From contig JAJDAT010000025.1 in assembly GCA_029261715.1 (NCBI GenBank), forward strand, positions 558,001-622,000: a DNA stretch of 64,000 nucleotides, in the 5' to 3' direction. How positions within the stretch are numbered: position 1 is the stretch's first letter; the number at the start of each line of letters is the position of its first letter. The notes beneath the pieces are model-generated. The model saw only the letters and a list, made by a program, of their open reading frames with translations. It made no database searches and was not told the DNA's origin. A program made the translations under genes and the position numbers. Positions 1,776-37,630 of the stretch are shown here, piece after piece. The stretch comes from Nitrospinia bacterium (GTDB lineage: Bacteria > Nitrospinota > Nitrospinia > Nitrospinales > JAJDAT01).

Positions 1776-1778
1776 TTT

Positions 1779-3080: not shown

Positions 3081-3083
3081 ATT

Positions 3084-4412: not shown

Positions 4413-4425
4413 ACGGATATAACAT

Positions 4426-5175: not shown

Positions 5176-6125
5176 TGTCAGAAGTAAAAAAACTTGTGAT
5201 TATTGGTTCGGGACCAGCGGGACATACTGCAGCAATTTATGCGGCGAGAGCTAATCTAGATCCTTTTATGTTTGAGGGATATATGTCGGGTGGACCAGCT
5301 GGCGGCCAATTGACCACAACAACAGATGTCGAAAATTATCCAGGGTTTCCAGAAGGAGTAAATGGTCCAGATTTGATGGAGTTGTTTCGAAAACAGGCTG
5401 AGCGTTTTGGAACTGAAATGTACCGAGAGGATGTATCGGAAGTAGATTTTAGCAAACGGCCTTTTACTATTAAGTCTGAGAAAAGAGAAGTTCAAGCCCA
5501 ATCGGTTATCATCGCTACTGGAGCTACGGCTCGGAGAATGGGCGTGCCGAGTGAAGAGAAAATGTGGAACAATGGTATGTCCGCTTGCGCAGTCTGCGAT
5601 GGCGCGTTACCTTTTTTCAAAAATCAACCCTTGATGGTAATCGGAGGCGGCGATACGGCTGTTGAAGAAGCTTCTTATTTGACCAAATTTGGCACTGTGG
5701 TGTATTTAGTGCATCGTAGAGACGAGCTGCGAGCTTCTAAAATTATGCAAAAACGGGCTTTTGACAATCCTAAGATAGATATTGTTTGGGACTCTGTTTT
5801 CGTAGACGCTCTAGGAGAAGATTTTGTCACTGGCGCTCGCGTTAAAAATATTAAAACTAATGAAGAAAAAGATATTCCATTGGCAGGTATTTTTTACGCG
5901 ATTGGACACACGCCCAATACGTCAGTTTTTAAAGGTCAAATTGATTTAGATGAAACCGGCTATATTAAAGTTAAAAGCGGAACCCAACAAACTAACATTG
6001 AAGGCGTCTTCGCCGCTGGCGACGTTCACGACAAAGTTTATAGACAAGCTGTGACTGCGGCTGGAGCAGGGTGTGCCTCTGCTTTGGAAGCGGAACGTTG
6101 GTTGGCTGAACAAGGTATTGAATAA
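5175..6125 (+). CDS. trxB: Thioredoxin reductase
   Basis: FAD/NADPH-dependent reduction of thioredoxin in the cytoplasm. The FAD-binding motif GSGPAGHTA is near the N-terminus, the NADPH motif GGGDTAVEEA is central, and the redox-active pair is SACAVCDG (Cys138 and Cys141 from this start). The C-terminal FAD motif is GVFAAGDV. I chose ATG 5175 over the in-frame TTG one codon earlier because ATG forms a TGATG overlap with the preceding stop and gives the standard MSEVKKLVIIGSGP start. A strong terminator follows directly. Confidence 0.93.
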   Translation: MSEVKKLVIIGSGPAGHTAAIYAARANLDPFMFEGYMSGGPAGGQLTTTTDVENYPGFPEGVNGPDLMELFRKQAERFGTEMYREDVSEVDFSKRPFTIKSEKREVQAQSVIIATGATARRMGVPSEEKMWNNGMSACAVCDGALPFFKNQPLMVIGGGDTAVEEASYLTKFGTVVYLVHRRDELRASKIMQKRAFDNPKIDIVWDSVFVDALGEDFVTGARVKNIKTNEEKDIPLAGIFYAIGHTPNTSVFKGQIDLDETGYIKVKSGTQQTNIEGVFAAGDVHDKVYRQAVTAAGAGCASALEAERWLAEQGIE

Positions 6126-19950: not shown

Positions 19951-20946
19951 TTATCGCAATTTGCTTTCGGCTAATTCAACGTCTTCTTTACTGCCGATAA
20001 AAAGAGGAATTCTTTGATGAAGCTCAGTTGGTGATTGAGTATAGATGTTGGATTTTCCATCGCTTGCTTTGCCGCCTGCTTGTTCAACAATAAAAGCTAA
20101 AGGAGCCGCTTCAAAAGCAAACCTTAATTTCCCATTTGGATTTTTACAATCACCGGGATACATAAAAATGCCTCCCTTGAGCAAAGTGCGATGAAAATCA
20201 GATACCAGTGTTCCGATATACCGCAATCTATAAGGTCTTCCAGTTTCTTCATCCGTTTCTTTAAAGTATTGAACTAAGGATTTTTGTTTATCATTCCATA
20301 AAGAAACGCTACCTTCATTAATACTATAATAAGGGCCTCTAGAGGGAATTTTTAAGTCAGGATGAGAAAGATAAAATTCACCGATAGCGGGATCAAGTGT
20401 AAAACCATGAACTCCATTACCTGTAGTATAAACAAACATAGTGCTGGAGCCGTACAATATGTAGCCCGCTCCAACTTGCCGATCTGCTTTTTGCAATAAA
20501 TCTTCGTCAGTTACGGTATCCCCAGAACTTATTTTTTTATAAACGGCAAAAATCGTTCCGATGCCCACGTTCACATCAATATTGGAAGAACCATCTAGCG
20601 GGTCCATCATAAATACATATTTACCGCTGGTTTGTTGTTCCTTAGGGACCAAAACGGCTGTTTCGTTTTCTTCTGAGCCTATAGCGCAAACTTTGCCAGA
20701 TTGTGAAAGTATTTTTATAAAAGTTTCGTTCGCGTAGTGGTCTAGTTTCTGTACCTCTTCTCCTTGAACGTTGACTTCACCAGTTAGGCCAATAATGTCC
20801 TCACCGATACCGGCACGGTTAACTTCTCGTGAAACCAGTTTCGCCGCGACTAAAACTTCATTCATTAAACTGGAGAATTCGCCGGTAGCTCCCGGAGTGA
20901 TATTTTCTTGTGCGCGAAGATATTGAACTAAAGTAATTCCAGACAT
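19951..20946 (-). CDS. fbp: Fructose-1,6-bisphosphatase class I
   Basis: 331 aa (E. coli Fbp is 332). The metal and substrate site MDPLDGSSNIDVNVGIGTIF is diagnostic of class I, as are the N-terminal TLVQYLRAQE and the C-terminal GGIFMYPGDCKNPNGKLR. The enzyme hydrolyses fructose-1,6-bisphosphate in gluconeogenesis or a carbon-fixation cycle, fitting with acs nearby. No second-copy or RuBisCO gene is in view. Confidence 0.95.
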   Translation of the reverse strand: MSGITLVQYLRAQENITPGATGEFSSLMNEVLVAAKLVSREVNRAGIGEDIIGLTGEVNVQGEEVQKLDHYANETFIKILSQSGKVCAIGSEENETAVLVPKEQQTSGKYVFMMDPLDGSSNIDVNVGIGTIFAVYKKISSGDTVTDEDLLQKADRQVGAGYILYGSSTMFVYTTGNGVHGFTLDPAIGEFYLSHPDLKIPSRGPYYSINEGSVSLWNDKQKSLVQYFKETDEETGRPYRLRYIGTLVSDFHRTLLKGGIFMYPGDCKNPNGKLRFAFEAAPLAFIVEQAGGKASDGKSNIYTQSPTELHQRIPLFIGSKEDVELAESKLR

Positions 20947-21048
20947 AGTGCGAGACCCTAAAAACCTTTCAACAAAATAGTGCGGATAAAAACTTCAGAT
21001 TCTAACGTATTTCTCAATTTTTCTCAAATTGAAAGGAAGGTTGTTAGA

Positions 21049-21080
21049 CTGTAAAAAACAATGTTTTTACAGTTCTTTTG
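21049..21080 (+). other. Terminator-like hairpin in the fbp/21.4 kb divergent region
   Basis: CTGTAAAAA (21049-21057), six-base loop, TTTTTACAG (21064-21072), then TTCTTTTG. It looks like an intrinsic terminator but is not directly behind any plus-strand gene. It could insulate the downstream gene or be part of the fbp leader on the other strand. The rest of 20947-21447 is AT-rich with no ORF. Confidence 0.4.
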
Positions 21081-21187
21081 TTATCAAAAAGTTTATTTTT
21101 TAGTTTTGTTACAAATAATTTTGCAAGTGTAAATCTATGAAGGTAAACGAATTGTTTTTGGAGGGGGAAAAATGTTGGTAAAATTTT

Positions 21188-21215
21188 TTGACTTTAGAAT
21201 TTATTTTTTTACAAT
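21188..21215 (+). promoter_or_regulatory. Candidate promoter of the toroid-collagen-kelch gene
   Basis: TTGACT (21188-21193), a 16-nt spacer and TACAAT (21210-21215). It would give a transcript leader of about 225 nt before ATG 21448. Confidence 0.45.
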
Positions 21216-21447
21216 AAGCTATTCTTAATTTCCGTAAGTTGAAATTATAGTCCTTTATATTATTTAATTTTTTGCGTTCTAAAAGTCTCAGTATTTAAAG
21301 TATTTTAGTTCAATATTAAAATAGTTTTAAAAAGACATTAAATTTAGTCAATATGCTAAAATTTCGTAGTTCTGAAATTGCGCGTTGTCCTGTAAGAGGA
21401 AGTAGATAATCCGTTCTTAAACCAAAGTCGGTATCAAGAGAAAAATT

Positions 21448-24012
21448 ATGAAAAATATTAAATCCTTTGTTGTTGGTTCTCTTTTTTTATGTCTAACGGT
21501 AATTCCTTCCATTTCTTGGTCGGGGCCTTATCAAGTAGATATGAATGCAGGATGGAATTGGTTGATAAGCCAGCAAAATGACGATGGCAGTTGGGGAGAC
21601 CAAACTGGACTTAAATTTATTTATACGTCTGAAGTTGTTAAAACTTTGCACGGCTCTTTGTCCGGAAATCAAGCGTATCTAAAGGGAATAGCGTGGTTGG
21701 AAAACCATTTTACTGATTCTTTGGATTTACGGGCCAGAAGAGTTAGCGCCATCATTGCTCATGGCGACGATGTCGCTTCAGAGATTTCGACGATAGCGGC
21801 CGCCCAAAGTGATAGTGGCGGCTGGGGATTGAGCGAGGTTTATGAAGGTTCTCCCTTAGATACTTCCTTAATTTTATTGTCGGCTGGTAAATTGATCGAC
21901 TCAACCAAGGTAAGCGCGGCTATTAGTTTTCTTGATTCAAAAAAATTGACAGGAGGTGGTTGGGCTTCTTTATCTAGTGGTACTGATTTAGATCCGATTG
22001 CAACCTCTTGGGCAATAAGAGCATTGGACGGTTTAGAATCGCAACATCCAACCGCTACGCCATTAATCAGCTCAGCCGTTACGGCTTTAGACAACGCTGT
22101 CGACACAGGAACTTCGGATACGATCAAAGCGAACGCAGCGTTGGCTTTGCTAACGCGCGATGTGGCATCCATAAAAGGATTGCAATTATTAGGAGAACTT
22201 GTCGCTTCCCAGGGGCCAGACGGTAGCTGGGGACAAAATGTATTGATCGCCTCTCTAGCTTCTAAAACCATGTCTGTCGTTGAAATGTCCGGGCAAGCGG
22301 ACCCCGAAGCTATCGTTAATTTTGTCGATCCTAAACTTCCGGTTTTTTTAAACAATCAATTGGGTAAAAACCAATTTGATGTCATTCGAGCCAAAGAATT
22401 ATTACTGTTCGATGTACTGAACCTAACAGGCGTCGGTGTAACCAGTTTAGTTGGGTTAGAAGGCGCCGTTAATTTGGCTTCTTTAACTTTGGATATGAAT
22501 GCTGGCGATTATCAAGGATTGGACCCAAATAATTTATACGTGGATCTTATGGGCGATCTACAAACGCTATCGGGCAATCTCGATAATTTGAATATCAATT
22601 TATACGAACCTGGTCCGGCAGGGCCTCAAGGACCGGCGGGACCATTGGGACCAACTGGGCCCGTTGGTCCCGATGGACCCGCAGGAATACAAGGGATTCA
22701 AGGAGTTCAGGGGGCATTGGGGCCTCAAGGCAACCAAGGAATTCAAGGCATTCAAGGACCATCGGGAGAAGGAGATGATAATTCAGATGGCGTTGAGATT
22801 ACTATCGCGATGGAAACGACCTATGATCTTTTGGGCGATGGTGTTCTCGTTCCCGCGCTGGATCTTAATGGAACGGGTATCTACTCGGGAGCAGATAACC
22901 CAACGGTTACCCTTTCTGGAGTTCCTCTAAACGTTCTTGCGTTAAGCGACTTAGGAAATCCTCTCAAACAAGTGATTGTGGATTTACCGGCAGACTTACC
23001 GCTTGGAACTTATAAAGTAGTCTTAACCAATACAAATGGGTCTTCAAGGTTTCCCGTTACTTTAGGAGCGGCTTTAGCTTCAAATACCACCCCTGATCCC
23101 GACCCAAGTCCAGATCCTGATCCTAACCCAAGTCCAGACCCTGATCCTCCTCCAGCAAGCTCAGGACATAGCGGAGAGAATTGGGAGCTAGTAGTGGCAA
23201 CCGCTTCTTGGCCTGGTCGTATGTTTCAAGCGTCGACAGTTTTCGACAACAAAATGTGGATGTCGTCTGGGAATACTCCGTCAGGTAATTTAGACGATAT
23301 TTGGTATTCGGCTGACGGATTAAATTGGACAGAAGCTACTGGCGGTACACGTCCTTCAGCAAGGAGTGGACACGCCATGGCATCGTACAATGGCAAAATA
23401 TATATATTGGGTGGAAGTAACAAAAATGATGTGTGGTCTTCTGCTGATGGTATTAATTGGATTCAAGAGACTGCAAATGCAGGTTGGTCGGCTCGTAGTA
23501 GTCACCAAGCCGTTGTTCATGATGGGAAAATATGGATTTTGGGAGGTAGTAACAAAAACGATGTATGGTACTCGACAGACGGAGCAAATTGGACTGAAGC
23601 CACCAGTTCGGCTGCGTGGTCGGGAAGATCTAATCACGCTGCTTTGGTCCATGATGGGAAAATGTGGGTAATAAATGGGGTTAGTAAAACGGATGTTTGG
23701 TATTCGACTGATGGAATTAATTGGACTGAAGCTACTTCCGATGCTGGTTTAGGCAATGGAGGTCTTTACTCAGCAGGGGCAGTAACTTTTGATAATAAAA
23801 TGTGGGTTATGGCGGGTTATGCACTCAACGTGGGGCATCGCGATGAAGTTTATAGTAGTTCCGATGGAGTCACTTGGGATCTAGTTACCGATGCGCCAGG
23901 TTGGACGCCCAGGTATAGTCCCATGGCTTTTTCCTTATTGGACCGGTTATGGTTCATGGGCGGTTATGTAGGGCCAAGAAGCCAAGAAGTTTGGGGTTCC
24001 ATCGAGCCTTAA
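21448..24012 (+). CDS. Secreted toroid / collagen-like / kelch mosaic protein
   Basis: 854 aa with signal peptide (cut near SWSG, about residue 26). Residues about 30-300 form a prenyltransferase/squalene-cyclase-like alpha-alpha toroid, with QW-type repeats: [27 protein letters not shown] and GPDGSWGQN. Residues 388-441 are Gly-X-Y collagen-like triplets ([20 protein letters not shown] and so on). Then come an IPT/TIG-like stretch and a Pro-Asp linker (about 547-571). About 578-851 are five or six kelch-type propeller blades ([33 protein letters not shown]). It is probably an extracellular surface or adhesive protein. No catalytic DxDD or other cyclase motif is seen, so it is unlikely to be an enzyme. 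Confidence 0.75.
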
Positions 24013-24049
24013 ACGGGTAGGCTGTGGAACAGTCTAGAAGAGAAGAATT

Positions 24050-24510
24050 TGAGTGTTGTTTTTTTATTTTAGAGGAGTGTTTTTTACCTAGGTTTTTCCT
24101 CGCACTTAGCGCTCGTCCAGAATGACGGGGAGATGGTCGTTATTGGGAGAGCGATATTTTTTTGAAGAGAAACGGTTTGTCGCCGTCATCCTAGAGCGAA
24201 AAGAATGCAAAGCATTCTTGAAGAGAAGGATCTGGATTAATAATTTTCCTTTTTAGAGTAGTGTTTTTTACCTAGGTTCTTCCTCGCACTTAGCGCTCGT
24301 CCAGAATGACGGGGAGAGGGTCGTTATTGGGGAAGCGATATTGTTTTGAAGAGAAACGGTTTTGTTTTGGCCGTCATCCTTGAGCGAAAAGAATGCAAAG
24401 CATTCTTGAAGAGAAGGATCTAGGTTGATAATGTTCCTTTTTAGAGGAGTGGTTTTATCTAGGTTCTTCCTCGCACTTTGTGCTCGTCCAGAATGACGGG
24501 GCGCGAGGTA
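24050..24510. repeat. REP-like palindromic repeat array, about 185-bp tandem period
   Basis: Two and a half copies of a unit made of arm A (ACCTAGGTTCTTCC ... CCAGAATGACGG) and inverted arm B (CCGTCATCCTAGAG ... GAAGGATCTAGG). A arms: 24086-24140, 24270-24315, 24457-24501. B arms: 24183-24235, 24371-24425. Period is about 184-187 bp. Arm B encloses a smaller palindrome (GAATGC aaa GCATTC). No open frame of interest. The same arms recur through the window. Confidence 0.85.
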
Positions 24511-24600
24511 ATATTGGTGAAGAGAAGTTGATAATGGTTTGTACGTTCAACTGTTTAAAACGAAGTAGCGCAAAGCGGTTTAACAAAAACGGTAGGCCAA

Positions 24601-24679
24601 CCGTCATCCTAGAGTCGTTCCGTAGGAACGATGAAGGATCTAGGTAATTTTTCCTTTTAGAAAAGTGAAGGATCTAGGT
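24601..24679. repeat. REP-like arm B plus a partial copy before the coiled-coil gene
   Basis: CCGTCATCCTAGAG through GAAGGATCTAGGT (24601-24645), then GTGAAGGATCTAGGTC again at 24665-24680. The second copy supplies a GTG that artificially lengthens the frame of the next gene. Confidence 0.8.
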
Positions 24680-24709
24680 CAAAAATTTCACACTTTTAAA
24701 AAAGTAATT

Positions 24710-25570
24710 ATGAACAATAAAATCACAATCGTTGTTATTGGTTGCCTAATCCTTCTGCTTGCGCCATTCAATTTTTTATCCGCTCAAGAAAACTCAGGAG
24801 TGTCGGTAGACAAACCCGTTCCCCTGCAATCGGACGAAATTCGAAAAATTCAAAAACTCGGAAAAGCTGTTCTGCGAGCGCGTAATCAAGGTCGCGATAA
24901 AAATAAATTTGAAAGAGATAGAGCGGCTCTCAAAACATTAAGAAAAGAATTGCGCAAACTCAAACGCGACTTACAATTTCCAGATGGAGAAAATTTTACT
25001 GTTCAGGCCGTTCCCGCAGGAACTCCCCAATTATCGGATGAAGAAAAAGCCGCGAAAAAAGCCGCCAGAAAAAAGGAGCGCAAAGAAAAGCGAAGGGCCA
25101 GACTCAACGAATCGGTTGGAAAGCTACGGAGCATGGAACTCGACCACAGAGCGCGTAAGGTCGAATCTAAGATCCGCAAAGTTAAACGAAAGCTCGACCG
25201 AGTCAAGCAAAAGCCAGGAGGCGGCAACCCAACACGAATTGCTAAGCTGGATAAGCGATTGGCCAAGTTAGAAAAAAAGCAAAAGCGTTTGCAGAAAAAA
25301 AAAGAGAAACGTCTCAATCGCAAGCAAAAGAAGAAAAATCCCAAACCCATCAACCCTGATACGCAAGAAGATTTAGAAGAAGCGTCGCGCATATCGCAAT
25401 TGGCTAATGAACTAGCGGCCTTACAAGGCAAACCCGAAAGCGAACAAACGGATAAAGTCAATGAGTTGTTGCGTCGGAGTGGCGATACTGAAGGACCGAC
25501 AACGCCAAAACCAATTACTAGAGAACCCGGTTTCAGAACGAAGGCTCATCACCGCTATCCCATTCAGTAA
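24710..25570 (+). CDS. Secreted, very basic coiled-coil protein of unknown function
   Basis: 286 aa from ATG 24710, which begins a good signal peptide (MNNKITIVVIGCLILLLAPF, then NFLSAQ). The in-frame GTG at 24665 lies inside the repeat and is rejected. The mature part is dominated by Lys, Arg, Glu and Leu, with heptad-like spacing (KLDKRLAKLEKKQKRLQKK) from about 60 to 245, predicting long helices or a coiled coil. A short Pro-rich tail ends in HHRYPIQ. It resembles no family I know. It sits between two REP-like copies and may bind acidic polymers on the envelope; that role is a guess from charge alone. Confidence 0.6.
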   Translation: MNNKITIVVIGCLILLLAPFNFLSAQENSGVSVDKPVPLQSDEIRKIQKLGKAVLRARNQGRDKNKFERDRAALKTLRKELRKLKRDLQFPDGENFTVQAVPAGTPQLSDEEKAAKKAARKKERKEKRRARLNESVGKLRSMELDHRARKVESKIRKVKRKLDRVKQKPGGGNPTRIAKLDKRLAKLEKKQKRLQKKKEKRLNRKQKKKNPKPINPDTQEDLEEASRISQLANELAALQGKPESEQTDKVNELLRRSGDTEGPTTPKPITREPGFRTKAHHRYPIQ

Positions 25571-25589
25571 AGGAAAAGGCAAGGCTTAA

Positions 25590-25627
25590 AAACAGCCACA
25601 GAAAGCACAGAAAAACACAGAAGAATG
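25590..25627. repeat. CACAGAAA-type dispersed repeat
   Basis: CCACAGAAAGCACAGAAAAACACAGAAG-like stretch (25596-25624). The inverse recurs at 26127-26160 (TTCTGTGAAATTCTGTGG, then CTCTGTGGCC), and a degenerate copy is inside the giant gene at 26628-26650. Confidence 0.5.
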
Positions 25628-25644
25628 AGCGAAGGTGTTGTTCG

Positions 25645-25689
25645 CCGTCATCCTAGAGGAGCCCTGAAAGGGTGACGAAGGATCTAGGT
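25645..25689. repeat. REP-like arm B, left side of the GIY-YIG gene
   Basis: CCGTCATCCTAGAGG ... GACGAAGGATCTAGGT. With the A-type copy at 26012-26056 it forms an inverted pair around the nuclease gene. Confidence 0.8.
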
Positions 25690-25698
25690 CAAAAAATA

Positions 25699-25989
25699 AT
25701 GAAGACTTTTTACGTTTACATAATGGCAAACGAGTATCGGACGCTTTACACAGGAGTGAAAAACGATTTGAATCGTCGAGTGTATGAGCATAAACAAAAA
25801 TTGATTGATGGGTTTACTTCTCAATACAACCTTACAAATCTTGTTTATTTAGAAGAACACCAAAGCATTCGTTGGGCAATTCAAAGAGAAAAACAAATTA
25901 AGGGTTGGCTGAGGGCAAAGAAAATTGAATTGATTGAGACTATGAATAGCGATTGGAAAGATTTAAGCGAAGGTTGGTATAGAGGTTAG
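25699..25989 (+). CDS. GIY-YIG nuclease-superfamily protein (COG2827 type)
   Basis: 96 aa from ATG 25699. The frame extends upstream to 25672 only through REP-like sequence, so that start is rejected. FYVYIMANEYRTLYTGV carries the GIY and YIG half-motifs (here VYI and YTG). NDLNRRVYEHK supplies the conserved Arg and the Tyr/His, and QREKQIKGWLRAKKIELIE is the C-terminal helix with the conserved Glu. This small single-domain class is common in bacteria and has no settled role. Inverted REP-like copies on both sides (25645-25689, 26012-26056) make it look like cargo of, or partner to, the repeat. Confidence 0.85.
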   Translation: MKTFYVYIMANEYRTLYTGVKNDLNRRVYEHKQKLIDGFTSQYNLTNLVYLEEHQSIRWAIQREKQIKGWLRAKKIELIETMNSDWKDLSEGWYRG

Positions 25990-26011
25990 ACCCTTTTAGA
26001 GGAGTGATTTT

Positions 26012-26107
26012 ACCTAGGTTCTTCCTCGCACTTTGTGCTCGTCCAGAATGACGGGGAGAAGGACGTTATTGGGAAAGCAATATTGTTTTGAAGAGAAGGA
26101 TCTGGGT
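26012..26107. repeat. REP-like arm A and partial arm B, right side of the GIY-YIG gene
   Basis: ACCTAGGTTCTTCC ... CCAGAATGACGG (26012-26056), then GAAGAGAAGGATCTGGG (26089-26106). Same layout as the array at 24.1-24.5 kb. Confidence 0.8.
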
Positions 26108-26179
26108 ATTAATTCAGTATTTTTCTGTGAAATTCTGTGGCTAAAAGCGCCTCTGTGGCCAATAAAAGGAGAACGAAAC

Positions 26180-29100
26180 GTGTTTCAAGTAAAGCGAACT
26201 TTGCTTTGGTTTAATATCATAATTTTAACGATCTCTTTGGTCTTACCTCAAATTGTTGACGCTGCGCCACAAGAGTTCCGCAATACCGTCTGGCAAGATG
26301 ATAAAACCTTAGAAGGAAGGAATTACCTAGATCCTTCGCCCTTTGGGCTCAAGGATGACGGAGAGAGTGGCGGTTCTGAGAATGGACAAGGTTCTACCGC
26401 GAAGCATGTACCTTCAGCAACCAAAGTTCGTATACAAAACGCCTATGGCAAACTTCCGTTACGTTTTGAAAAAAACGAAGGCCAAACCGATTCCAAAGTA
26501 AAGTTCTTGTCGCGAGGCAACGGATATAGTTTATTCCTAACGCCAACGGAATCTGTTCTGACCTTAACCAAACCCAGAGAGGGCAAAGAAGGCTACTTCG
26601 ACAAGATCAGTACAGGCTCCGAATTTCACAGAAAAACAAAGAAAATTCAAAACCGCCTCGCTCGCTGTCATCCTAGAACGAACGGATTGTGCAACAATCC
26701 TGAAGTGAAGGATCTAGGTAATTCACTTCCTTTGAAAAAGTTCCGCAATACAGCGTGGAACAACAATGAAGTTGAAGAAAACCAAAATAATGTCACCTTG
26801 AACCCAAAAAATGTCACGGTGAGGCTCTCGAACCGCGACCACAACTCCCAAGAAGAGCAAACGCCATCTTACGAAACCATCGCCATATCCATGAAAGTGG
26901 TGGGAGCCAACCCAAACGCGAAGGTAGCGGGACAAGAAGAACTCCCAGGTAAAACCAATTACCTCATTGGTAAAGACCAATCGAAATGGCGTACAGGCGT
27001 ATCCAATTACAAAAAGGTAAAATATGAAGAGGTGTATCCGGGAATCGATCTAGTCTATTACGGCAACCAAAGAAAACTGGAATACGACTTTGTAGTCAAA
27101 CCCGGCGTCGACCTTAAAGTCATCGCGCTAAAGTTTGACGGTATAGACGGTATGACTTTGGACGATGAAGGCAACCTTGTCTTGCAAACAGGCAATGGCG
27201 AAGTAATCCAACAAAAACCCATCATTTATCAAGAAGTCCACGGACAACGCCAACCGATAGAAGGTAAGTATTCCATCCAGGAAGACAACCGCGTTGCATT
27301 TCTAGTTAGTGACTACGATAAAAATAAAAACCTTGTCATCGATCCTATTCTTCAGTATTCAACCTATTTAGGAGGGACCGATAGTGAGTTTGGTCGAGGT
27401 ATTGCCGTAGATAATTCAGGAAATATTTATGTTGTCGGAGATACTAAATCTACTGGGTTTCCAACAATATCTGGAGCATATCAAACAAATAAAACAGATA
27501 GTTCTTTTGATGTTTTCGTTGTTAAGTTGAATTCCACAGGATCTGCTCTAGTTTACTCTACTTATATTGGAGGTAATGATCAAGATAGAGGTTATGGAAT
27601 AGCAATAGACAATTCTGGAAATGCATATATTACGGGGCTAACTGTTATTGATTTCCCAACAACTGCGGGTGCATTTTTAGAAAATCCATTAAATAATTTT
27701 GCTGGTTTTGTGGCTAAACTGAACCCATCCGGCTCTGATTTAATTTATTCAACCTATCTGGGAGGCACATCTGGAGACAATGATGCTAGAAGTATTGCTG
27801 TCGACGATTCGGGAAATGCCTATGTGACTGGAGTAACATTTGCTTCAAATTTTCCTACGACTTCAGGAGGATTTCAAACGACTAATAATGGATCCGGAGA
27901 TGTGTTTATTATTAAATTAAACTCTACTGGCTCTGGATTAATTTATTCTACTCTTGCAGGGGGTGTTGGCGAGGATAGAGCTTTTGGGATCGATCTAGGC
28001 ACTTCTGGAAATGCATATGTTACGGGGTATACAAAATCAACCGATTTTCCGGTAACTTCAGGAGCATATCAAACAACTTTCGGAAATGGACCTCAAGATG
28101 CGTTTATTTTAAGGTTGAATAGTGATGGTTCAAACTTGGTCTATTCTACCTATGTCGGAGGGCATGCTGATGAAGTCGGAACTGGTATTGCTGTTGACAA
28201 TTCGGAAAATGCCTATATAACAGGTTTTACTCAAGGCGCATATCCAATAACATCTGGGGTGTTTCAATCAATTTCAGCGGGACCAAAAGAAAGTTTTGTT
28301 ACAAAAATTAATTCTTCCGGGTCGAGTCTAATTTACTCAACTTATATAGGAGGAATTAATGGTGATTTCGCGCGCGCTATTGAATTAGACAATTTGGGTA
28401 ATGCATATATTACAGGAGAAACATGGTCTTATGACAGTTATCCTACTACCCCAGGAGCGTTTGCGACAGCGGTTCCAGGAGTAAGTTCTTTTTTATCGAA
28501 ATTAAATACAGATGGTTCCTCTTTATTGTATTCCACTTATGTGTCAGGAGGAGGGTTTGTATATGGAACTGGTATTGCCGTAGATAGTCTTGAGAACGCT
28601 TATATTGTTGGTCATACCTCATCAAATAGTTTCCCCACGACAGAAGGAGCTTTTCAGGAAAGTAAGGCAGGCTCAGATGATGCAATTATTTATAAAGTAA
28701 ACTTTAACCAACCTATTGTAACTGCTCCCGGTAACATCATACTCGAAGCGACAGGACCAACAACATCAGTTGATTTAGGAATTGCCTCAGCAATAGATCC
28801 GCAAGAAGGTGACTTAACCCCTACATCAAACATGATTGGTCCTTTTGCGGTCGGAATTCATACGGTGACTTGGTCGGTGACGGATTCAGATGGGAATATA
28901 GACAGCGCGCCCCAAATAGTTACTATAACCGATACAACTGCCCCAACGGTGAATCCTCCTGAAGATATCACCGTGTTTTCCGCAAGTCAAACCACGTTAG
29001 TAACATTAGGTACGGCGACTGCAACGGATGTCGTTGATGGAGCTTTAACTCCAACAGCTGATAACACCGGACCTTTTACGATTGGCGTACATACAGTCAC

Positions 29101-32100
29101 TTGGTCGACAATAGATTCAGCTGGTAATATTGGAACGGCCTATCAAACAGTAATCATAAATGCTGGGTACCCGCCAGTTGTTACGCCTCCACTTGACGTT
29201 ACTGTCGAAGCAACAGGACCGACATCATTAGTTACGTTAGGAACCGCAGTGGCGACCGACCAGGAAGATGGGGTATTAATTCCTACAGTTGATAATTCTG
29301 GTCCTTTTGCGATCGGAGTTCATACGGTGACTTGGTCGGTGACGGATTCAGATGGGAATACGGGATCGGCCACGCAGACAGTAACTATTACGGATTCTAC
29401 TATTCCTACAGTGATTCCTCCGGCTGACGTGACTTTAGAAGCGACGGGACCGACCACTTCGGTAAATATAGGATTAGCGGTTGCGACCGATCCTATAGAC
29501 GGAAACTTAATTCCTACAGCGGATAACCTGGGGCCGTTTGCCGTTGGAACTCATACCATCACTTGGACGGCCACAGATCCCAGCGGGAATTCCGGAATGG
29601 CGACTCAAACTTTAACCATTATCGATACTATTCCCCCGATAATAAATCCCCCTACAGATATTCTTGTCGTAACAATGGAGTCAGCTATATCAGTGAATCT
29701 TGGGACTGCCACCGCGACAGATATTGTAGACGGAACGTTAACTCCAATTGTAGATAATATCGGGCCTTTTGCGATAGGAGTTTATACGATAACCTGGTCT
29801 GCAACCGATACAAATAACAATACGGGAACAGCCACTCAAACGGTTACGGTGTCGCTCCCAAGCGATCTTGGGGAAACCTCCGAGATTCAATTTACGTCAG
29901 ATTCGGCGCAAAAGCTCAGAGACAAAGCCAATGAACTGGGTTCGGCCGTCAAAATTTATGAATACGTTCGTAATAACTACGAGTATCAGCTTTATCACGG
30001 TTCTATCAGCGGCTCGATCAATTCGTTTTTAGCCAAACGAGGTAACGATGTCGATTTAGCCACTACACTCATTGCTATGTTGAGATCACAAGGCATTCCT
30101 GCGCGCTATGCCGTAGGCAACGTGACACTAAAAAAAGAAGATTTGATGAATTGGCTCAACGTCAAAAACTTCGATTTGGCGGTTTCCATTTTACGCGATC
30201 AGGGGATTCAAGGTCCGGGATCGATTGGACCGGAGGTGAGCGCAGATGGCAATAGCGTGACCTTCGAACGAATTTGGGTGCAAGCATTGGTTTCGTACGA
30301 GGATTATCGCGGTATTGGATCCGATGAATCTTTGGATTGCGCAGGGACTTTTATTCCTGATCCCTGTTTGTGGGTTGATTTAGATCCGGCATTTAAATTA
30401 CGAAAATATCACAATCAGAGAATCGATATTTACGGTCAAGTGCAATTCGATTACGATCGCTATTTTCACGCCATTCGTAATAACGATATTGAATATAAAG
30501 ATAAAAATCCATTGGAGATTTACAAACAGGAAATTCTGGAATATTTACGTATCCATCACCCTGGTAAAACTCTGGAAGACGTCAAAGATCCTGGCTTAAT
30601 AATAAAAGAAGAATTGGAGCTCCTGCCAGCGTCATTACCGTTTGAAACCGTTGGCGAAGTTAAAACCTACGATTCGACAGAAGAACATGATTTAGATTTC
30701 TCTGTTTCCAATCCTGCTGGACTTAAAAAATGGCAAAAAAAACTAAAATTCAAGTTAAAATTTGAAGCAATAGATATAAATCTCCCTTGGGAGATATTAT
30801 TATCTGATGCATCTTACCAAAAGTTATCGCTTTCATTTGTTTCATCATTGCCTGGTTCTCAAAGTGTGGTTGCTAGATTTAATGGAATTGACGCCGTTTC
30901 TCCTTATGTAATAAATATTAATATTAATGGTCAGCCAGTTGTTCAAGACGGGGCTATTTTTAATTTGCAATTGGAAATGGATGGTCCACCAGCTATAGAA
31001 GCTGGTGGGATCGATGATGTTTTTACATCAGAGAATGAAGGTTTAATAGTGGGTGGGTATTATCATATATCTACGGGAGGATATAGTTCGAATTGGTCGC
31101 AAGTTCATCGGGCAACTGAACAACTTTTAACCGCTAACGACCAGTACCCTATTTTAAACGATGCGTCTGATATCCCATATGTTGATGAAAATGAAAATAA
31201 AATTATAGATCCTGGAGAATTACCTCTCCTGGATCATGATGAAGCCCAAGAAGCGCTTACGGGTGGTTTGCTGTATGTTGCCGGAATGCAGTTTTGGGCG
31301 GATTTTTATGAAAAAATTCAAGAGTTGGGAGCGATCGACTATGTTATTTCGCCTATTAGAGGTTTTGCTGGGATTGTTAGCTCTACAAACGAAGTGGAAT
31401 ATTTAGACGGCACTACTTTTGCCATTATGCCCGGTGGGTTATTGGTGGATATGTCTAGTTATTCAAATGGCGATTGGAGAATTAATGAACCTGAAAAAAT
31501 AGCTGGTTTGACCAATGATTTACAAGCTCACATAGGGTCTTCTTTGGAGCATGAAGTGTGGCAACAAATGACGGGTTACGACGCCGTTTCTACCGTTCGT
31601 GGGATCCAAATGGCGTTGGCTCAGGATTTGGATAACGACGGACAGTTTGACGCAAGGCTTCTACATCTCAAAAAAACCGCGACGGAAGACACGTTTCCCG
31701 CAGCAGCTCCTCATTTAGGATTCACTTCTCAGGCTCCACCAAATTTCGAGAGGGCGGATCGTTTTGTTTTTTCCACACGTCCGTCTACTTGGTCATGGGA
31801 ACCCAATCCAGATGAAAGTCATATCTTCTTAACTTTTAAATCAACTATTGACTCTTCAGATAGCGATATAAGGCGTTTGTATGTGAATTACTTTAGTGAA
31901 GCAGGAGATAGCGTTTTTCCGACTGTTGGAATAGTTCCTTGTTTTGACTATCAGGAAGATTTAATTACATCTTTTTCACCTGGTAGCACGGTAACCGGAA
32001 ATTATTGCGGTGGAGAAGACATTGGTGGCGTGAGTAGAGAACAAACGTTGATTCGATTGGAAGAAATTTATACTGATTATACAGGTGGAGCTCCTCAGTT

Positions 32101-35100
32101 TGAATATTTTGATCGTTCGCAAGGTTTCGTCCCCAGTGAAAACGTTTATCGACTTTCCGACGAAGAACTCCCTAGCGATTATTTTCCCTCTGAAGATGTC
32201 ATGAATTTTCATTACTCAATTTATCCTAAAGATCCTCCCGATTACCGATTGGAATTCGTTATCCCTTCTCGTCTTACGGTCGGCCCGACTTACCGTTTTA
32301 AGGTATTTAATGGGAGACAATTTAATTCTAACGATGAATTAACTGGTTGGAGCATGTCCATCTCTAATATGAGTTTTACCGCTAATGGCGGTTATGTGGC
32401 GGCGGAAGAGGAATTGAAACCGGAGGAGGACACCACTGGTCAGCTTTTCGATAACGAACTTTTCAACAACGAAACCTTTGTCGGTTTGGTCAATAACGAC
32501 GAGATCCGCACGCCTTCAACCGTCGATCCGGTTAGTACCGTCACCGGCAATATGTACCTTGACGAAACTGATATAGCCATCAAGGGACGCGGTCTCAATG
32601 TCGGATTCACCCGCACCTACAATTCCGGACAAATCGATCTTGGCGACGGCAAACCGTTCAGCAAAGGTTGGACCCATTCCTACAATATGAAATTGAGATC
32701 CAACGATTTTGGGCAACATCCGAATTATCCCGTCGAGTTGGCTTCGGAAAATGAAAACAATTTAACTTCCTCTATCACCTACACAAACGAACGTGGCGGC
32801 GAAGCGAATTATCTGGTCAACGATTTGGGGAGTTATGCAGTGACGCCGCCAAAAGGATTCTTTGACGACTTGCAATTGGATACGCCCAGCATGGGTTATC
32901 ACACGTTGACCTTTCGCAACGGTACCAAATACGTTTTTTACAGTGGCAATAATATGCGGTCGCCAGGGCAAACGGCGCGCCTAGACCGCATTGAAGATCC
33001 GTATGGCAATCAACTGAGTTTTCAATACGATGGTTCCGGCAATTTAACAGCGATAACCGACAACCTCAATATCGCCGGACGTACAGGACTCTCCTTAACG
33101 TATTCCGGCGACCGGTTGGCGTCCATTACGGATTGGACGGGGCGTGAATGGACCTATGACTACGACGCTCAGAGTCGATTGAGTTCCATAACTGATCCGC
33201 TTGGCAATATTAAAACTTACTCCTACGATGGCGATAGTAATTTTTTAAATGAAGAGGAATATCCGGCGGACCGCAACGGCGAGAAAGCGAAAACGAACTA
33301 TACCTATTACGAAAACGGCAAAACCTTCAACAATGCTAACGCGTTAGGGCAGGGCGAGACTATCGATTACGACCTGTATCGAAAATCTACTCGCGTTACC
33401 GACGCCGACGGCTTTGTGCGTACCTATCGCTACGACCAGAACGGCGCCTTGCTTCAGTTGGAGGAGCCCGACGGCGGTATTTTATTTTTTGACAATAGCG
33501 AAGACAGCCTGCGTTATCAAAAAACCGATGCCCTGGGGTTTGTCACCCAATATTCGTATCGATCCAGTGGCAACGCGGGAACTCAAGCGAGTGATAACTT
33601 TGGTCGAGTGAGTCGGGAAATAGATCCCCTGGGATTTTCGACCCAATTTGAATATGGATTGTTCGATCAACCTTCTCACGTTGTCAATAAGCGTGGTCAT
33701 GCCAGTGTTTTGACTTATTTTGAAACCACGGACTCAAGCCTGGGAGCCGTGGCGGGCAAACTGCAACGGGAAGAAATCCTTTTCGAAGATCCAAACGCTG
33801 AACCCGTTGAAACCAATAACGGCAATTATACCGATGACGATACGGTGTTGATGCTGCATTTTGACGAACTAAACGGAACGTTCGTCGATTCTAGCCCGTC
33901 CGAGCATGTTATTACTGCCGTAAATGGAGCCACTACCGTGAACGCTCCAGACAATCCACTTAATCCTGGTAGCAATGCAGGTTCTTTCGATGGTATTGAT
34001 GATGGCCTTACCATCCCTGATTCCGAAGATTGGGAGTTTGGAAACGGAGATTTTACGATTGAATTATGGTTCCGGTTAAATGAAACGTCTCCAGGATCTG
34101 GGGTTGTTAAAAATAGTGGAAGTTTTTTCTCGCAAGGTCCAAACGCTTCAGTAGGCTATTTTGATTTTGGGTATGACGGTCAAGGCAATACGATATCATT
34201 TTATGACCAACCGGGTAATACGTTTAGCCTTACCATAGGCGCCGTCTTTGCCCCTAATACTTGGTATCATATGGCTCTTGTTCGTGATGGTATTATTTTT
34301 AGATATTTTCTTGATGGAATCGAACAAGGAACTAAAATCAGTAACGCAACTTTACTGGATCATACTGGGCCAGTATCGATAGGAAAAAGAAGTTATCAAA
34401 CCAACTATAGTCAAATAAATGGTCAAATAGAAGAGTTTAGAGTTTCGAAAGGAGTCGCTAGATGGACGTCAGACTTTACGTCGCCCACTACGCCTTATAC
34501 AGCTCCGCCGCCGCCATCGGGAATCAACACGGTTTTGGCGGAATACACGTACACTCCCGGCGGTAATTTAGAAACCAAAACGGACTTTTACGATCCGGCA
34601 AATCCCAATAAAAAAAGGGTAACGACTTATACTTACGACGCCGACGATTTCAATCCGACACAAGTGACGGTTACAGGTTATCCGGAAGGGGAAACCGTTA
34701 CCGTCGACACCACATACGACGCTCTGGGTCGAAAACTAACGGAGAGGCTCAACCGGCGCAACTCTTATGCAGACGAGACTCTACTACAGTTAACGTCGAC
34801 TTTTGAATACGATGCACTGGGGCGCGTTATAGCCGTTACCGATACACTCGGCAATGTAGCGCGTACGGTTTACGATGCCAACGGTCAGGTAACTCAGGAG
34901 TCGGTGGATTACAAACAGACTGACGCCAGTTTTGTGACTCGTATTTTTAAGACTTACGAATATGATGTTGCCGAACGTCTCATCAAAGAAACGGATATCG
35001 ATGGCAACTCGACTCAATATGCTTATGACGCGCGTGGCAATGTAATCTCGGCAACCGACGCAAATGGCAACGTGACGCGATTTGAATACGACGCGATGAA

Positions 35101-37630
35101 CCGGCAAACGGTTGTTATCGACGCTAACGGAGCGCGCCGACAAACCGTGTACGATTTGAACGGTCGCGTAACGCAAACTGTCGACGGTAATGGAACCGCT
35201 ATTTCGTTTGAGTACGATGGAGTAGGGCAGACCACTAAAATAATTACCGCTTTAAATAATCAAACGCAAATGGAATATGACGGTAACGGTAACCTGACTA
35301 AAACTACAGACGCCGAGGGACGTATTACGACACATGAGTATGACGAATTAAACCGGCGTATTAAAACCACCGACGCCAACAATGGGATTACGGCTTTTAC
35401 TTACGATTTGCAGGGCAACCGCACTTCTTTGACAGACGCCGAAGGGCACACCACTTCATTTGTTTACGATGGTTTAGGCCGATTGACCGAGGTCAAAGAT
35501 CCACTGGAGGAAGACCCGGAAGATAAATCCACGGTGTTTACCTATGATGAAGCGGGTAATGTGTTGACCGCCAAAGACCGTAATGGTAACGAAGTTGGTT
35601 TTGCTTACGATACGTTGAACCGGTTATTTGCGACGGTTTTTGTCAACGATAACGCGCAGGAATTACGTACCTACGACAGTTTTGGGAATTTAAAGCAAGT
35701 CGCTAACGAAGACATTATTTATTCGTTCACTTACGATCAACAGAATCGATTGATTTCCAAAACCGACGAAAGGCTTGATCATAACGGAGCATCAACCAAT
35801 AAAATCCTAAGTTGGAGCTATGACAAAGTGGGGAACGTCGTTACCAAAACCGATTATCAAGGCAAAACGACTAACTACCAGTACAACGCCGCCAATCGAT
35901 TGATCGCGCAGAGTAATTCGGACCACGTACAAGTTTCTTATTATTATGACGAAGCGGGTCGATTGGTGAATCGTATTTTATCCAACGACGTGAAGAGTTT
36001 TTATCAATATGATGCAGACAATCGATTGACGTCATTGATCAACCAGGGTGTTGGCGGAGTTGAGATAAGTAGAACATTATACACCTACGACAAAGTGGGC
36101 AATATCAAAACTGTATCGGTAGGGGCGCAGGGGGCGGAACAGACCACGGTTTATACTTACGACAACTTAAATCGTTTGTTAGGAGTTGACGCGCCCAATA
36201 CGGCAAACGATCATACTTACGTCTACGATAAAGTAGGAAATCGATTAACTCACAACCAGGATGGCGTTGCTCATGCTTACGCCTACAATGTGAATAATCA
36301 ATTGATAGAAGTTCGGCAGGGCAGTATGGCGGGTCCCGTTGTTTATACATATACCTACGATTCTAATGGCAACCGGTTAACCAAGCGCAATGTCGACGAT
36401 ACGACTCTGCAAAGTTTTGTTTATGATCAGAAGAATCGGGTGACGGGGATGTCGGTTCCGGATAAGTCGTTTTATTTTAAGTACGATCCGAGCGATTACC
36501 GGATCAAAAACGACCCTTCGACAGGCTCAGGGCAGGTTAGTGCGGGAGGGACGCGAAATTACTATTTAGAAGGTGAGCATTTAGAAGCGATTTATGATCG
36601 TAACTTTCAATTACAGGACCAATATTTTCGTGGCGTGGTGGTGGACGAGGTAGTTCATGGACTCCATTACGATGCTGATGGCAACGAAAGCGGAACAACA
36701 TATCATCACGACCATTTACGGTCGGTCACTTCGACGGTTGGCTCGTTAGGGAGTACCTCATCAACGATGCAATACGGACCGTTTGGCGAGTTGATAACAG
36801 AAACCGGCAACGACAACGGCAACCGATTGCATTACACCGGACGTGAGTTGGACGATTCCGGGTTATACTACTACCGAGCCCGCTATTACGATCCAGAGGT
36901 TGGACGTTTTACGACGGAAGATCCCATTGGGTTTAAAGGTGGAATTAATAAGTATGCTTACGTTGGAAATAATCCAATTAACGGAAATGATCCGAGCGGT
37001 CAAGCGAGAGTTGAATTAATTGAACGACCTATAGATAATTCCCCAACTGGTAATCATGCTGTGATAGTTGTGACAGATCTGGATGGATCCAAAACTTTAT
37101 ATGAAGGTTTTCCCGAAGCACAATTAAATAATAATCAAACCCCAACTAATCTTTTTGGGGATTTGACTGCTGTGGTAAACCAAACAAATCCAAAGGATTT
37201 AGCTGGGCTGCCAAGTCAAGTTTTAGTGGATGACAATTTGCCCGGAAACGTTTATACGGGACAATTTAACGTTTATAACCAGCAAATCAATCAATCAAAT
37301 ATTAGTTACAACCCCTTAAGTACTAATAGCAATGCTTATGCATTTTCAGCTGTGGAACAAGTATTGGGCGTTAGACCTAATTCGCAAACTTTTTCTCCGG
37401 GAAGTACCCTTTCGTTATCAAACCAAATTCCCTTCAACAATGGTTTGCAATCTCCTCAATTCTCCAGTGGAGCTGAAGGTTTTTTTGATGGTGTTTCCAA
37501 TTTTTTTCAAGGTTTGTTAGGACTTAGTTCTAGTTCTTCTAGTTCAGGGGGAAATGGCGCTGGAGGAGGATTTGTTATTTATCCTAATAAGCCAAATAAT
37601 AATTTTATGGAATCTGTTTATTCTAAATAA
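26180..37630 (+). CDS. Giant secreted RHS-repeat mosaic protein with a variable C-terminal tip
   Basis: 3,816 aa from GTG 26180, which has AAAGGAG 8 nt upstream; the open frame back to 26033 is repeat sequence. Domains by residue: signal peptide 1-28; DUF7948-like domain about 74-389 (GKLPLRFEKNEGQTDSKVKF); SBBP propeller 389-844 (YSTYLGG, IAVDNSGNAYVTG); five HYR domains 845-1224; transglutaminase-like domain about 1236-1334 (RSQGIPARYAVG) lacking the usual nucleophilic Cys (GNDVDLATT); DUF6531-like start of the RHS part about 2113 (STVDPVSTVTGNMYLDETD); YD repeats to about 3450 with a LamG domain inserted at 2553-2771; RHS core 3461-3609 ending DPIGFKGG...NDPSG; tip 3610-3816. The tip (HAVIVVTDLDGSKTLYEGFP, YNPLSTNSNAYA) is not a family I can name. 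It ends in the tail [14 protein letters not shown] shared with the cassettes downstream. Probably a surface-exposed or delivered polymorphic effector. Confidence 0.85.
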   Translation: MFQVKRTLLWFNIIILTISLVLPQIVDAAPQEFRNTVWQDDKTLEGRNYLDPSPFGLKDDGESGGSENGQGSTAKHVPSATKVRIQNAYGKLPLRFEKNEGQTDSKVKFLSRGNGYSLFLTPTESVLTLTKPREGKEGYFDKISTGSEFHRKTKKIQNRLARCHPRTNGLCNNPEVKDLGNSLPLKKFRNTAWNNNEVEENQNNVTLNPKNVTVRLSNRDHNSQEEQTPSYETIAISMKVVGANPNAKVAGQEELPGKTNYLIGKDQSKWRTGVSNYKKVKYEEVYPGIDLVYYGNQRKLEYDFVVKPGVDLKVIALKFDGIDGMTLDDEGNLVLQTGNGEVIQQKPIIYQEVHGQRQPIEGKYSIQEDNRVAFLVSDYDKNKNLVIDPILQYSTYLGGTDSEFGRGIAVDNSGNIYVVGDTKSTGFPTISGAYQTNKTDSSFDVFVVKLNSTGSALVYSTYIGGNDQDRGYGIAIDNSGNAYITGLTVIDFPTTAGAFLENPLNNFAGFVAKLNPSGSDLIYSTYLGGTSGDNDARSIAVDDSGNAYVTGVTFASNFPTTSGGFQTTNNGSGDVFIIKLNSTGSGLIYSTLAGGVGEDRAFGIDLGTSGNAYVTGYTKSTDFPVTSGAYQTTFGNGPQDAFILRLNSDGSNLVYSTYVGGHADEVGTGIAVDNSENAYITGFTQGAYPITSGVFQSISAGPKESFVTKINSSGSSLIYSTYIGGINGDFARAIELDNLGNAYITGETWSYDSYPTTPGAFATAVPGVSSFLSKLNTDGSSLLYSTYVSGGGFVYGTGIAVDSLENAYIVGHTSSNSFPTTEGAFQESKAGSDDAIIYKVNFNQPIVTAPGNIILEATGPTTSVDLGIASAIDPQEGDLTPTSNMIGPFAVGIHTVTWSVTDSDGNIDSAPQIVTITDTTAPTVNPPEDITVFSASQTTLVTLGTATATDVVDGALTPTADNTGPFTIGVHTVTWSTIDSAGNIGTAYQTVIINAGYPPVVTPPLDVTVEATGPTSLVTLGTAVATDQEDGVLIPTVDNSGPFAIGVHTVTWSVTDSDGNTGSATQTVTITDSTIPTVIPPADVTLEATGPTTSVNIGLAVATDPIDGNLIPTADNLGPFAVGTHTITWTATDPSGNSGMATQTLTIIDTIPPIINPPTDILVVTMESAISVNLGTATATDIVDGTLTPIVDNIGPFAIGVYTITWSATDTNNNTGTATQTVTVSLPSDLGETSEIQFTSDSAQKLRDKANELGSAVKIYEYVRNNYEYQLYHGSISGSINSFLAKRGNDVDLATTLIAMLRSQGIPARYAVGNVTLKKEDLMNWLNVKNFDLAVSILRDQGIQGPGSIGPEVSADGNSVTFERIWVQALVSYEDYRGIGSDESLDCAGTFIPDPCLWVDLDPAFKLRKYHNQRIDIYGQVQFDYDRYFHAIRNNDIEYKDKNPLEIYKQEILEYLRIHHPGKTLEDVKDPGLIIKEELELLPASLPFETVGEVKTYDSTEEHDLDFSVSNPAGLKKWQKKLKFKLKFEAIDINLPWEILLSDASYQKLSLSFVSSLPGSQSVVARFNGIDAVSPYVINININGQPVVQDGAIFNLQLEMDGPPAIEAGGIDDVFTSENEGLIVGGYYHISTGGYSSNWSQVHRATEQLLTANDQYPILNDASDIPYVDENENKIIDPGELPLLDHDEAQEALTGGLLYVAGMQFWADFYEKIQELGAIDYVISPIRGFAGIVSSTNEVEYLDGTTFAIMPGGLLVDMSSYSNGDWRINEPEKIAGLTNDLQAHIGSSLEHEVWQQMTGYDAVSTVRGIQMALAQDLDNDGQFDARLLHLKKTATEDTFPAAAPHLGFTSQAPPNFERADRFVFSTRPSTWSWEPNPDESHIFLTFKSTIDSSDSDIRRLYVNYFSEAGDSVFPTVGIVPCFDYQEDLITSFSPGSTVTGNYCGGEDIGGVSREQTLIRLEEIYTDYTGGAPQFEYFDRSQGFVPSENVYRLSDEELPSDYFPSEDVMNFHYSIYPKDPPDYRLEFVIPSRLTVGPTYRFKVFNGRQFNSNDELTGWSMSISNMSFTANGGYVAAEEELKPEEDTTGQLFDNELFNNETFVGLVNNDEIRTPSTVDPVSTVTGNMYLDETDIAIKGRGLNVGFTRTYNSGQIDLGDGKPFSKGWTHSYNMKLRSNDFGQHPNYPVELASENENNLTSSITYTNERGGEANYLVNDLGSYAVTPPKGFFDDLQLDTPSMGYHTLTFRNGTKYVFYSGNNMRSPGQTARLDRIEDPYGNQLSFQYDGSGNLTAITDNLNIAGRTGLSLTYSGDRLASITDWTGREWTYDYDAQSRLSSITDPLGNIKTYSYDGDSNFLNEEEYPADRNGEKAKTNYTYYENGKTFNNANALGQGETIDYDLYRKSTRVTDADGFVRTYRYDQNGALLQLEEPDGGILFFDNSEDSLRYQKTDALGFVTQYSYRSSGNAGTQASDNFGRVSREIDPLGFSTQFEYGLFDQPSHVVNKRGHASVLTYFETTDSSLGAVAGKLQREEILFEDPNAEPVETNNGNYTDDDTVLMLHFDELNGTFVDSSPSEHVITAVNGATTVNAPDNPLNPGSNAGSFDGIDDGLTIPDSEDWEFGNGDFTIELWFRLNETSPGSGVVKNSGSFFSQGPNASVGYFDFGYDGQGNTISFYDQPGNTFSLTIGAVFAPNTWYHMALVRDGIIFRYFLDGIEQGTKISNATLLDHTGPVSIGKRSYQTNYSQINGQIEEFRVSKGVARWTSDFTSPTTPYTAPPPPSGINTVLAEYTYTPGGNLETKTDFYDPANPNKKRVTTYTYDADDFNPTQVTVTGYPEGETVTVDTTYDALGRKLTERLNRRNSYADETLLQLTSTFEYDALGRVIAVTDTLGNVARTVYDANGQVTQESVDYKQTDASFVTRIFKTYEYDVAERLIKETDIDGNSTQYAYDARGNVISATDANGNVTRFEYDAMNRQTVVIDANGARRQTVYDLNGRVTQTVDGNGTAISFEYDGVGQTTKIITALNNQTQMEYDGNGNLTKTTDAEGRITTHEYDELNRRIKTTDANNGITAFTYDLQGNRTSLTDAEGHTTSFVYDGLGRLTEVKDPLEEDPEDKSTVFTYDEAGNVLTAKDRNGNEVGFAYDTLNRLFATVFVNDNAQELRTYDSFGNLKQVANEDIIYSFTYDQQNRLISKTDERLDHNGASTNKILSWSYDKVGNVVTKTDYQGKTTNYQYNAANRLIAQSNSDHVQVSYYYDEAGRLVNRILSNDVKSFYQYDADNRLTSLINQGVGGVEISRTLYTYDKVGNIKTVSVGAQGAEQTTVYTYDNLNRLLGVDAPNTANDHTYVYDKVGNRLTHNQDGVAHAYAYNVNNQLIEVRQGSMAGPVVYTYTYDSNGNRLTKRNVDDTTLQSFVYDQKNRVTGMSVPDKSFYFKYDPSDYRIKNDPSTGSGQVSAGGTRNYYLEGEHLEAIYDRNFQLQDQYFRGVVVDEVVHGLHYDADGNESGTTYHHDHLRSVTSTVGSLGSTSSTMQYGPFGELITETGNDNGNRLHYTGRELDDSGLYYYRARYYDPEVGRFTTEDPIGFKGGINKYAYVGNNPINGNDPSGQARVELIERPIDNSPTGNHAVIVVTDLDGSKTLYEGFPEAQLNNNQTPTNLFGDLTAVVNQTNPKDLAGLPSQVLVDDNLPGNVYTGQFNVYNQQINQSNISYNPLSTNSNAYAFSAVEQVLGVRPNSQTFSPGSTLSLSNQIPFNNGLQSPQFSSGAEGFFDGVSNFFQGLLGLSSSSSSSGGNGAGGGFVIYPNKPNNNFMESVYSK
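26325..26361. repeat. REP-like copy embedded in frame in the giant gene
   Basis: ACCTAGATCCTTCG ... CAAGGATGACGG lies inside the coding sequence and is read as YLDPSPFGLKDDG, between the signal peptide and the first domain. Confidence 0.8.
26667..26719. repeat. Second in-frame REP-like copy, inverted
   Basis: GTCATCCTAGAACG ... GAAGGATCTAGGT, read as CHPRTNGLCNNPEVKDLG. It sits in an insertion that splits the DUF7948-like domain. With the copy at 26325 it forms an inverted pair. Confidence 0.8.
36511..36540. repeat. In-frame CCCTTCGACAGG-type palindromic repeat in the RHS part
   Basis: CCCTTCGACAGG followed by CTCAGGGCAGG (36514-36536) is a different, widely distributed palindromic repeat. 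It is translated as DPSTGSGQ within the last YD repeat, where related RHS proteins run directly from the YD repeat into NYYLEGEHL. Confidence 0.7.

Follow-up and report, generated by a model that had tools for sequence, protein, structure and literature searches.

The gene lies on the forward (+) strand at positions 21448-24012 of the window (the whole 64,000-nucleotide stretch of DNA analysed here, from a genome in Nitrospinota), and its ATG-initiated frame is open and intact and codes for a protein of 854 residues. A Sec signal peptide is predicted from the sequence at residues 1-25 (21448..21522, +), with a hydropathy maximum of 1.93 at residue 4 and no lipobox; the sole cysteine of the whole protein falls within it, which leaves a cysteine-free mature chain of 86.8 kDa with a pI of 4.25. 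A motif scan of the 854 residues found neither LPXTG nor a lipobox, and no anchor or outer-membrane route was identified for this protein. A GspD-type secretin is encoded in the genome, and no link between it and the protein was found.

The neighbouring genes, as we read them from their translations, presumably include fur, hisS and a fructose bisphosphatase. Downstream (26033-37630) is encoded a 3865-residue protein with SBBP propeller repeats, HYR/Ig domains, a transglutaminase-like core, a laminin-G domain and RHS repeats. GC3 ranges from 0.25 to 0.38 across the parts of the gene, as against 0.48-0.51 in the flanking housekeeping genes and 0.39 in the RHS gene. Four copies of a 90-nt repeat, which have GTCATCC/GAATGACGG-like ends and share 72-94% identity with the reference copy, lie in the intergenic regions at 24060-24550 and 26008-26097, around a KR-rich ORF and a small GIY-YIG ORF (25672-25989). 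An exact match to an 18-nt core of the repeat occurs only 4 times in the genome, each time at this locus. There was no Rfam match at the gathering threshold in 20900-26100, and a scan for promoters and terminators did no better than on shuffled sequence.

Domain architecture of the exported protein

The mature chain begins with an α/α toroid (residues 26-282; 21523..22293, +), recognised by an AlphaFold model, structure comparison, profile matches to cyclases in the PDB and a motif scan. The model, built on an alignment of only 4 rows, contains 12 helices over residues 25-282 with block pLDDT mostly 70-94, and the remainder of the stretch modelled with it stays below 50. Its closest structure is squalene-hopene cyclase (2sqc; Z 24.9, 2.7 Å, 251 residues aligned), and terpene cyclases make up the first 22 rows of the structure matches (Z 21.8-24.9). 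Other toroid folds, such as the GH76 mannanases, epimerases and AprG (Z about 19-21) and also complement C3d, are matched more weakly. As several toroid families are recovered, the fold alone names no function. A profile of the window sequence and one relative detects PDB cyclases with E-values down to 1.7e-15, and the two Pfam models of the family, SQHop_cyclase_C (15.1 bits; cut-off 26.1) and SQHop_cyclase_N (12.6 bits; cut-off 26.2), both score below threshold. Four QW-like motifs are present in the toroid, at residues 43, 120, 166 and 255. The DxDD, DCTA and QDC patterns, which are motifs of the cyclases, find no match anywhere in the 854-residue protein. When the profile alignment to drimenyl diphosphate synthase is inspected by eye, the window has SPLDT opposite DVEDT, with a Leu facing the position that we take to be the catalytic acid mutated in D303E. 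A cyclase function is rejected on the basis of the absent motif patterns, the Pfam scores below cut-off, and the Leu opposite the presumed catalytic acid. The protein shares the toroid fold and the QW-like motifs with squalene-hopene cyclase and the type II terpene cyclases in general, but differs from them in having a single, exported toroid that lacks DxDD and falls far under the Pfam cut-off.

The toroid is followed by a weak internalin-like segment, resembling the cap or the first leucine-rich repeat of those proteins, at about residues 283-362 (22294..22533, +). It was detected by phmmer, with weak matches of about residues 288-360 to 4ezg (E 0.0011) and internalin K (E 0.0078); it has no Pfam match, does not model (AlphaFold pLDDT < 50), and has no relatives in any of the 76 other genomes of the phylum. 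Residues 317-337 reach a hydropathy of 1.68, the highest after the signal peptide and borderline for a membrane segment. We take this stretch to be the putative core of the internalin-like part; it could also be a membrane segment, in which case the topology would change.

Residues 363-388 (22534..22611, +) show a heptad-like pattern with hydrophobic residues at 6 of 7 a/d positions, to which we give modest weight, since 201 of 5000 shuffles were equally good. This segment is a possible short coiled coil, which might nucleate a collagen triple helix. For comparison, we gathered 47 distinct collagen ORFs from Nitrospinota, namely those of the fetched loci (L217-L252 and L058-L071) plus the window (one identical copy among an initial 48 was removed); they are a subset of all collagen matches in the phylum, and several are cut by contig or stretch ends. 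In 23 of the 47 an LQxQIxxIEL-type coil directly precedes the Gly-X-Y run, and is perhaps a coiled-coil trimer nucleus; the window protein does not match this pattern. By eye its pre-collagen segment resembles the coils of the relatives well, but the profile score was only 1.5 bits and 71 of 1000 shuffles did as well, and the likeness was therefore set aside as not significant.

The collagen-like rod itself (residues 389-442; 22612..22773, +) consists of 18 uninterrupted Gly-X-Y triplets and passes the Pfam Collagen cut-off (30.2 bits; cut-off 27.2). The longest Gly-X-Y run in shuffled sequence was 8 when the whole protein was shuffled (5000 shuffles) and 9 for the segment (20000 shuffles), which rules out an artefact of low complexity. 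The tract is flanked on both sides by non-collagenous domains, in a protein with a signal peptide. Proline occupies X in 10 of the 18 triplets and Y in none; because the rod is short and lacks proline at Y, its stability is uncertain. Its length is nevertheless unexceptional, as the longest run is of 18 triplets or fewer in 13 of the 47 gathered ORFs, the window included.

An alignment with relatives delineates the next domain (residues 444-540; 22777..23067, +), which is best named IPT/TIG-like because the domain aligned with it scores above the Pfam TIG cut-off of 20.9 bits in two relatives (L062, 23.7 bits; L061, 21.4 bits); the window copy has no TIG match of its own. Its AlphaFold model is of low confidence (block pLDDT 28-62), and a structure search with the IPT and propeller model gave a list filled by the propeller, with no match of the IPT part's own among those listed. 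It is connected to the C-terminal domain by a Pro-Asp-rich linker evident from the sequence (residues 546-573; 23083..23166, +), which is in part encoded by a 24-nt tandem repeat (23091-23148).

The C-terminal domain (residues 574-854; 23167..24009, +) is a six-bladed kelch propeller by Pfam, model and structure match. It passes the cut-offs of Pfam kelch families, among them PF24681 (63.5 bits; cut-off 50), and falls just short of that of Kelch_4, described as a galactose oxidase central domain (20.9 bits; cut-off 21.6); neither NanM nor an oxidase family is among the 8 NCBIfam rows with E-values of at most 1. AlphaFold gives six four-stranded blades (counted by eye from the strand list), the last closed by an N-terminal strand, with block pLDDT mostly above 90 and up to 98, and the model superimposes on the kelch domain of LZTR1 (9mez) with Z 33.0 (2.5 Å, 276 residues). 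An ungapped comparison gives 48-57% identity among the blades at residues 618, 662 and 706, and 25-36% identity of the blade at residue 750 to these three.

The original prediction had read positions 21448-24012 as a toroid, a collagen-like stretch, a Pro-Asp linker and a propeller, and all four are indeed found there in that order. Its N-terminal repeats model as a 12-helix toroid, devoid of the cyclase catalytic motifs as it had proposed, and its "about 18" triplets number exactly 18 and are unbroken. Its inventory of the parts was incomplete, in that it passed over the internalin-like cap and the IPT/TIG-like domain.

Distribution and probable shuffling of the domains

The phyletic distribution of the parts was studied in 60 order-mates, a set without any genome of the window's own family, and in 76 other genomes of the phylum (77 with the window's own). 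The toroid is found in none of the 60 order-mates, and in only one of the 76 other genomes (G062), where its relative is 29% identical and is accompanied by neither collagen nor kelch. The scan of named genomes was made with the toroid query and gave 6 loci; the search for the full domain order covered Nitrospinota. L072 (Nitrospinota record JACRGO010000006.1), which has a twin, L063, in G062, resembles the window protein in placing an N-terminal toroid after a signal-like stretch, but the toroid, 28% identical to that of the window, is followed there by CARDB, Ig-like and FG-GAP parts, and the twin of L072 has no collagen run. A gammaproteobacterial protein (L073) also starts with a toroid after a signal-like stretch, 25% identical to that of the window; by eye its later parts are similar to those of L072 and include no collagen run. 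A long FG-GAP-like module in the later part of the L073 protein (584-5947 of its locus) is, by eye, apparently repeated twice. None of 30 candidate stretches from IMG/VR contains the toroid, and plasmids yielded one weak partial match only (in Spartinivicinus, covering 68% of the query at 25% identity).

The IPT-kelch unit has 15 matches above 320 bits in 6 of the 77 genomes. The window's own genome accounts for ten of these, of which one is partial (positions 2-326 of 387). A collagen run directly precedes the unit in 4 of the 15, namely in the window, G007, G024 and G051, and is lacking in the paralogs of the window's genome and in G052 and G054. Paralogs of the unit are clustered in the window's genome (L053, 9351-12842; L052, 3763-15368; L054, 3571-6294), and two of these paralogs carry two units in a single protein. 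The proteins of G007, G024 and G051 (L058, L059 and L060, respectively) have a signal-like N-terminus and the collagen run, IPT-like domain and kelch propeller in the same order as the window protein, with IPT-kelch parts 41-45% identical to its own. They differ in that their collagen runs extend to 28 or 56 triplets at the longest, and in having no Pro-Asp linker and other N-termini instead of the toroid: a CBM96 domain in L058, and, by eye, a CBM96-like domain in L060 and a coiled coil in L059.

Collagen matches (E up to 1e-6) occur in 24 of the 77 genomes, the window's own included. The partner domains among the 47 gathered ORFs are kelch (4), TSP1 (3), laminin-G (2), β-helix (2), S74 chaperone (2) and collar (1). 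In the FastTree tree of kelch domains the window's copy joins a paralog from its own genome (support 0.999), whereas in the IPT tree its IPT domain lies apart from that of this sister paralog, and the four collagen-IPT-kelch copies form a single group in neither tree. Both trees agree with domain exchange, although trees built on short repeats carry little weight as evidence. Beyond Nitrospinota, this type of kelch is found in 14 Leptospira plasmid records. It is also frequent in viral contigs (IMG/VR L084-L151), many of which encode it in proteins of about 800 residues with a similar N-terminus that we take to be P22 gp10-like tail hub proteins.

The protein is based on a collagen-IPT-kelch arrangement that recurs, and among bacterial collagen proteins it represents an unusual form of an established kind. 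Within the searches made, the full toroid-collagen-IPT-kelch order is confined to one genome, and the toroid is its odd part. The earlier suggestion that no described protein has this order holds for the toroid in front, which was unique in these searches; it does not extend to the collagen-IPT-kelch part, which is present in three order-mates. No toroid-collagen-kelch or collagen-kelch protein appeared in titles or abstracts among the open-licence literature matches listed, a weak negative.

A probable double-ended fibre and the alternatives

Varied domains flank the collagen regions of bacterial proteins (PMC8968730, section 9), and the words kelch, propeller and toroid do not occur in the main text of that review. 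EPclA of E. coli prophages is reported to be a trimeric dumbbell with a coiled coil and a collagen stalk (PMC3368898). Its group, EPclA-D of the E. coli O157:H7 prophages, resembles the window protein in the succession of globular domain, coiled coil, collagen rod and globular domain, but has phage-fibre end domains, with no kelch or propeller in the text examined, and its members are likely side-tail proteins (PMC3368898). EPclA may be the nearest experimental precedent for the window protein, whose own trimeric state would follow by analogy. The streptococcal adhesins Scl1 and Scl2 also combine a collagen stalk with an N-terminal globular domain, but they are LPXTG-anchored, to judge from NCBIfam names, and the NCBIfam Scl match of the window protein is limited to the collagen segment (37.9 of 325 bits). 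Scl1 and Scl2 are not known to contain a kelch domain or a toroid.

We regard it as rather probable that the protein is a secreted, trimeric, double-ended fibre of the adhesin type assembled by domain shuffling. The original prediction envisaged a three-headed fibre; as the rod has globular domains on either side, a double-ended dumbbell fits better. Such a protein would be exported by the Sec system through its predicted signal peptide, and three chains would wind together at the 18-triplet rod, for which the rise per residue given in textbooks predicts a length of about 15 nm. That the chains trimerise through this rod is proposed by analogy alone, and the short coiled coil ahead of the rod would perhaps start the winding. 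At one end, each of the three chains would hold out a kelch propeller on its IPT domain and flexible Pro-Asp linker; the fold of the propellers, and the presence of this type of kelch in proteins of viral contigs and of bacteria, suggest that they might bind ligand multivalently. The three toroids at the other end, which lack the cyclase acid motif, would serve as a binding or docking module and not as an enzyme. Both ends would bind ligands, and the protein would act as an adhesin, perhaps located at the cell surface. The gene might have originated by placement of a toroid and an internalin-like piece before the collagen-IPT-kelch arrangement, which order-mates carry with other N-termini (CBM96-type or coiled coil). 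As a more specific version, to which we give little credence, the fibre would be a bivalent crosslinker drawn from a collagen/IPT/kelch shuffling pool of Nitrospinota, with three non-catalytic toroids binding a lipid, polymer or partner protein, a collagen rod, and three lectin-like kelch heads.

That the toroid and the internalin part are leftovers on a collagen-kelch gene, in a dispensable or decaying fusion with no combined function, appears unlikely to us. The full order in one genome only, and an internalin part that is a stub and does not model, would agree with it, as would a whole-gene GC3 below that of the flanking housekeeping genes, though this is near that of the RHS gene. On the other hand, a frame of 2.6 kb remains free of stops, the 12 helices of the toroid and the six blades are complete, and GC3 is alike in the toroid and the kelch (0.38 in both, with no sharp difference).

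Kelch folds include enzymes, such as the NanM mutarotase and galactose oxidase. The protein might accordingly be a periplasmic or secreted enzyme, with a catalytic toroid or propeller (a terpene-type cyclase, a glycan-active enzyme or a sugar mutarotase) that the collagen merely clusters. The resemblance of the toroid to the GH76 mannanases, epimerases and AprG and the near-threshold Kelch_4 score speak for such a role; the missing DxDD and DCTA, the Leu seen by eye opposite the presumed catalytic acid, and the lack of NanM or oxidase families in the NCBIfam rows speak against it, and we judge it distinctly unlikely.

A chromosomally resident tail-fibre protein, of a phage or a tailocin, is very improbable, and a phage origin was rejected: 25 PHROG families match the protein, 18 of them in the tail category, and 76 IMG/VR loci (several of them near-identical contigs) contain its type of kelch, but all 25 PHROG matches have their best stretch on the collagen segment, 50,697 phage records contain no match at E 1e-5, the viral kelch ORFs have neither a collagen run nor an IPT match, and the gene codes for a signal peptide and has the neighbours that we read as fur, hisS and fructose bisphosphatase, as well as the RHS protein.

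If the double-ended adhesin-type fibre is the correct reading, a ring of the terpene-cyclase type would have been taken over to form one exported end of a collagen fibre. Natural collagen rods that are short and bear defined end-pieces might also be of use in materials work. Nitrospinota would possess a collagen-IPT-kelch family with apparently swapped heads and N-termini, undescribed among the literature matches listed, and the attachment of these bacteria to particles, to cells or to one another could be tested through it.
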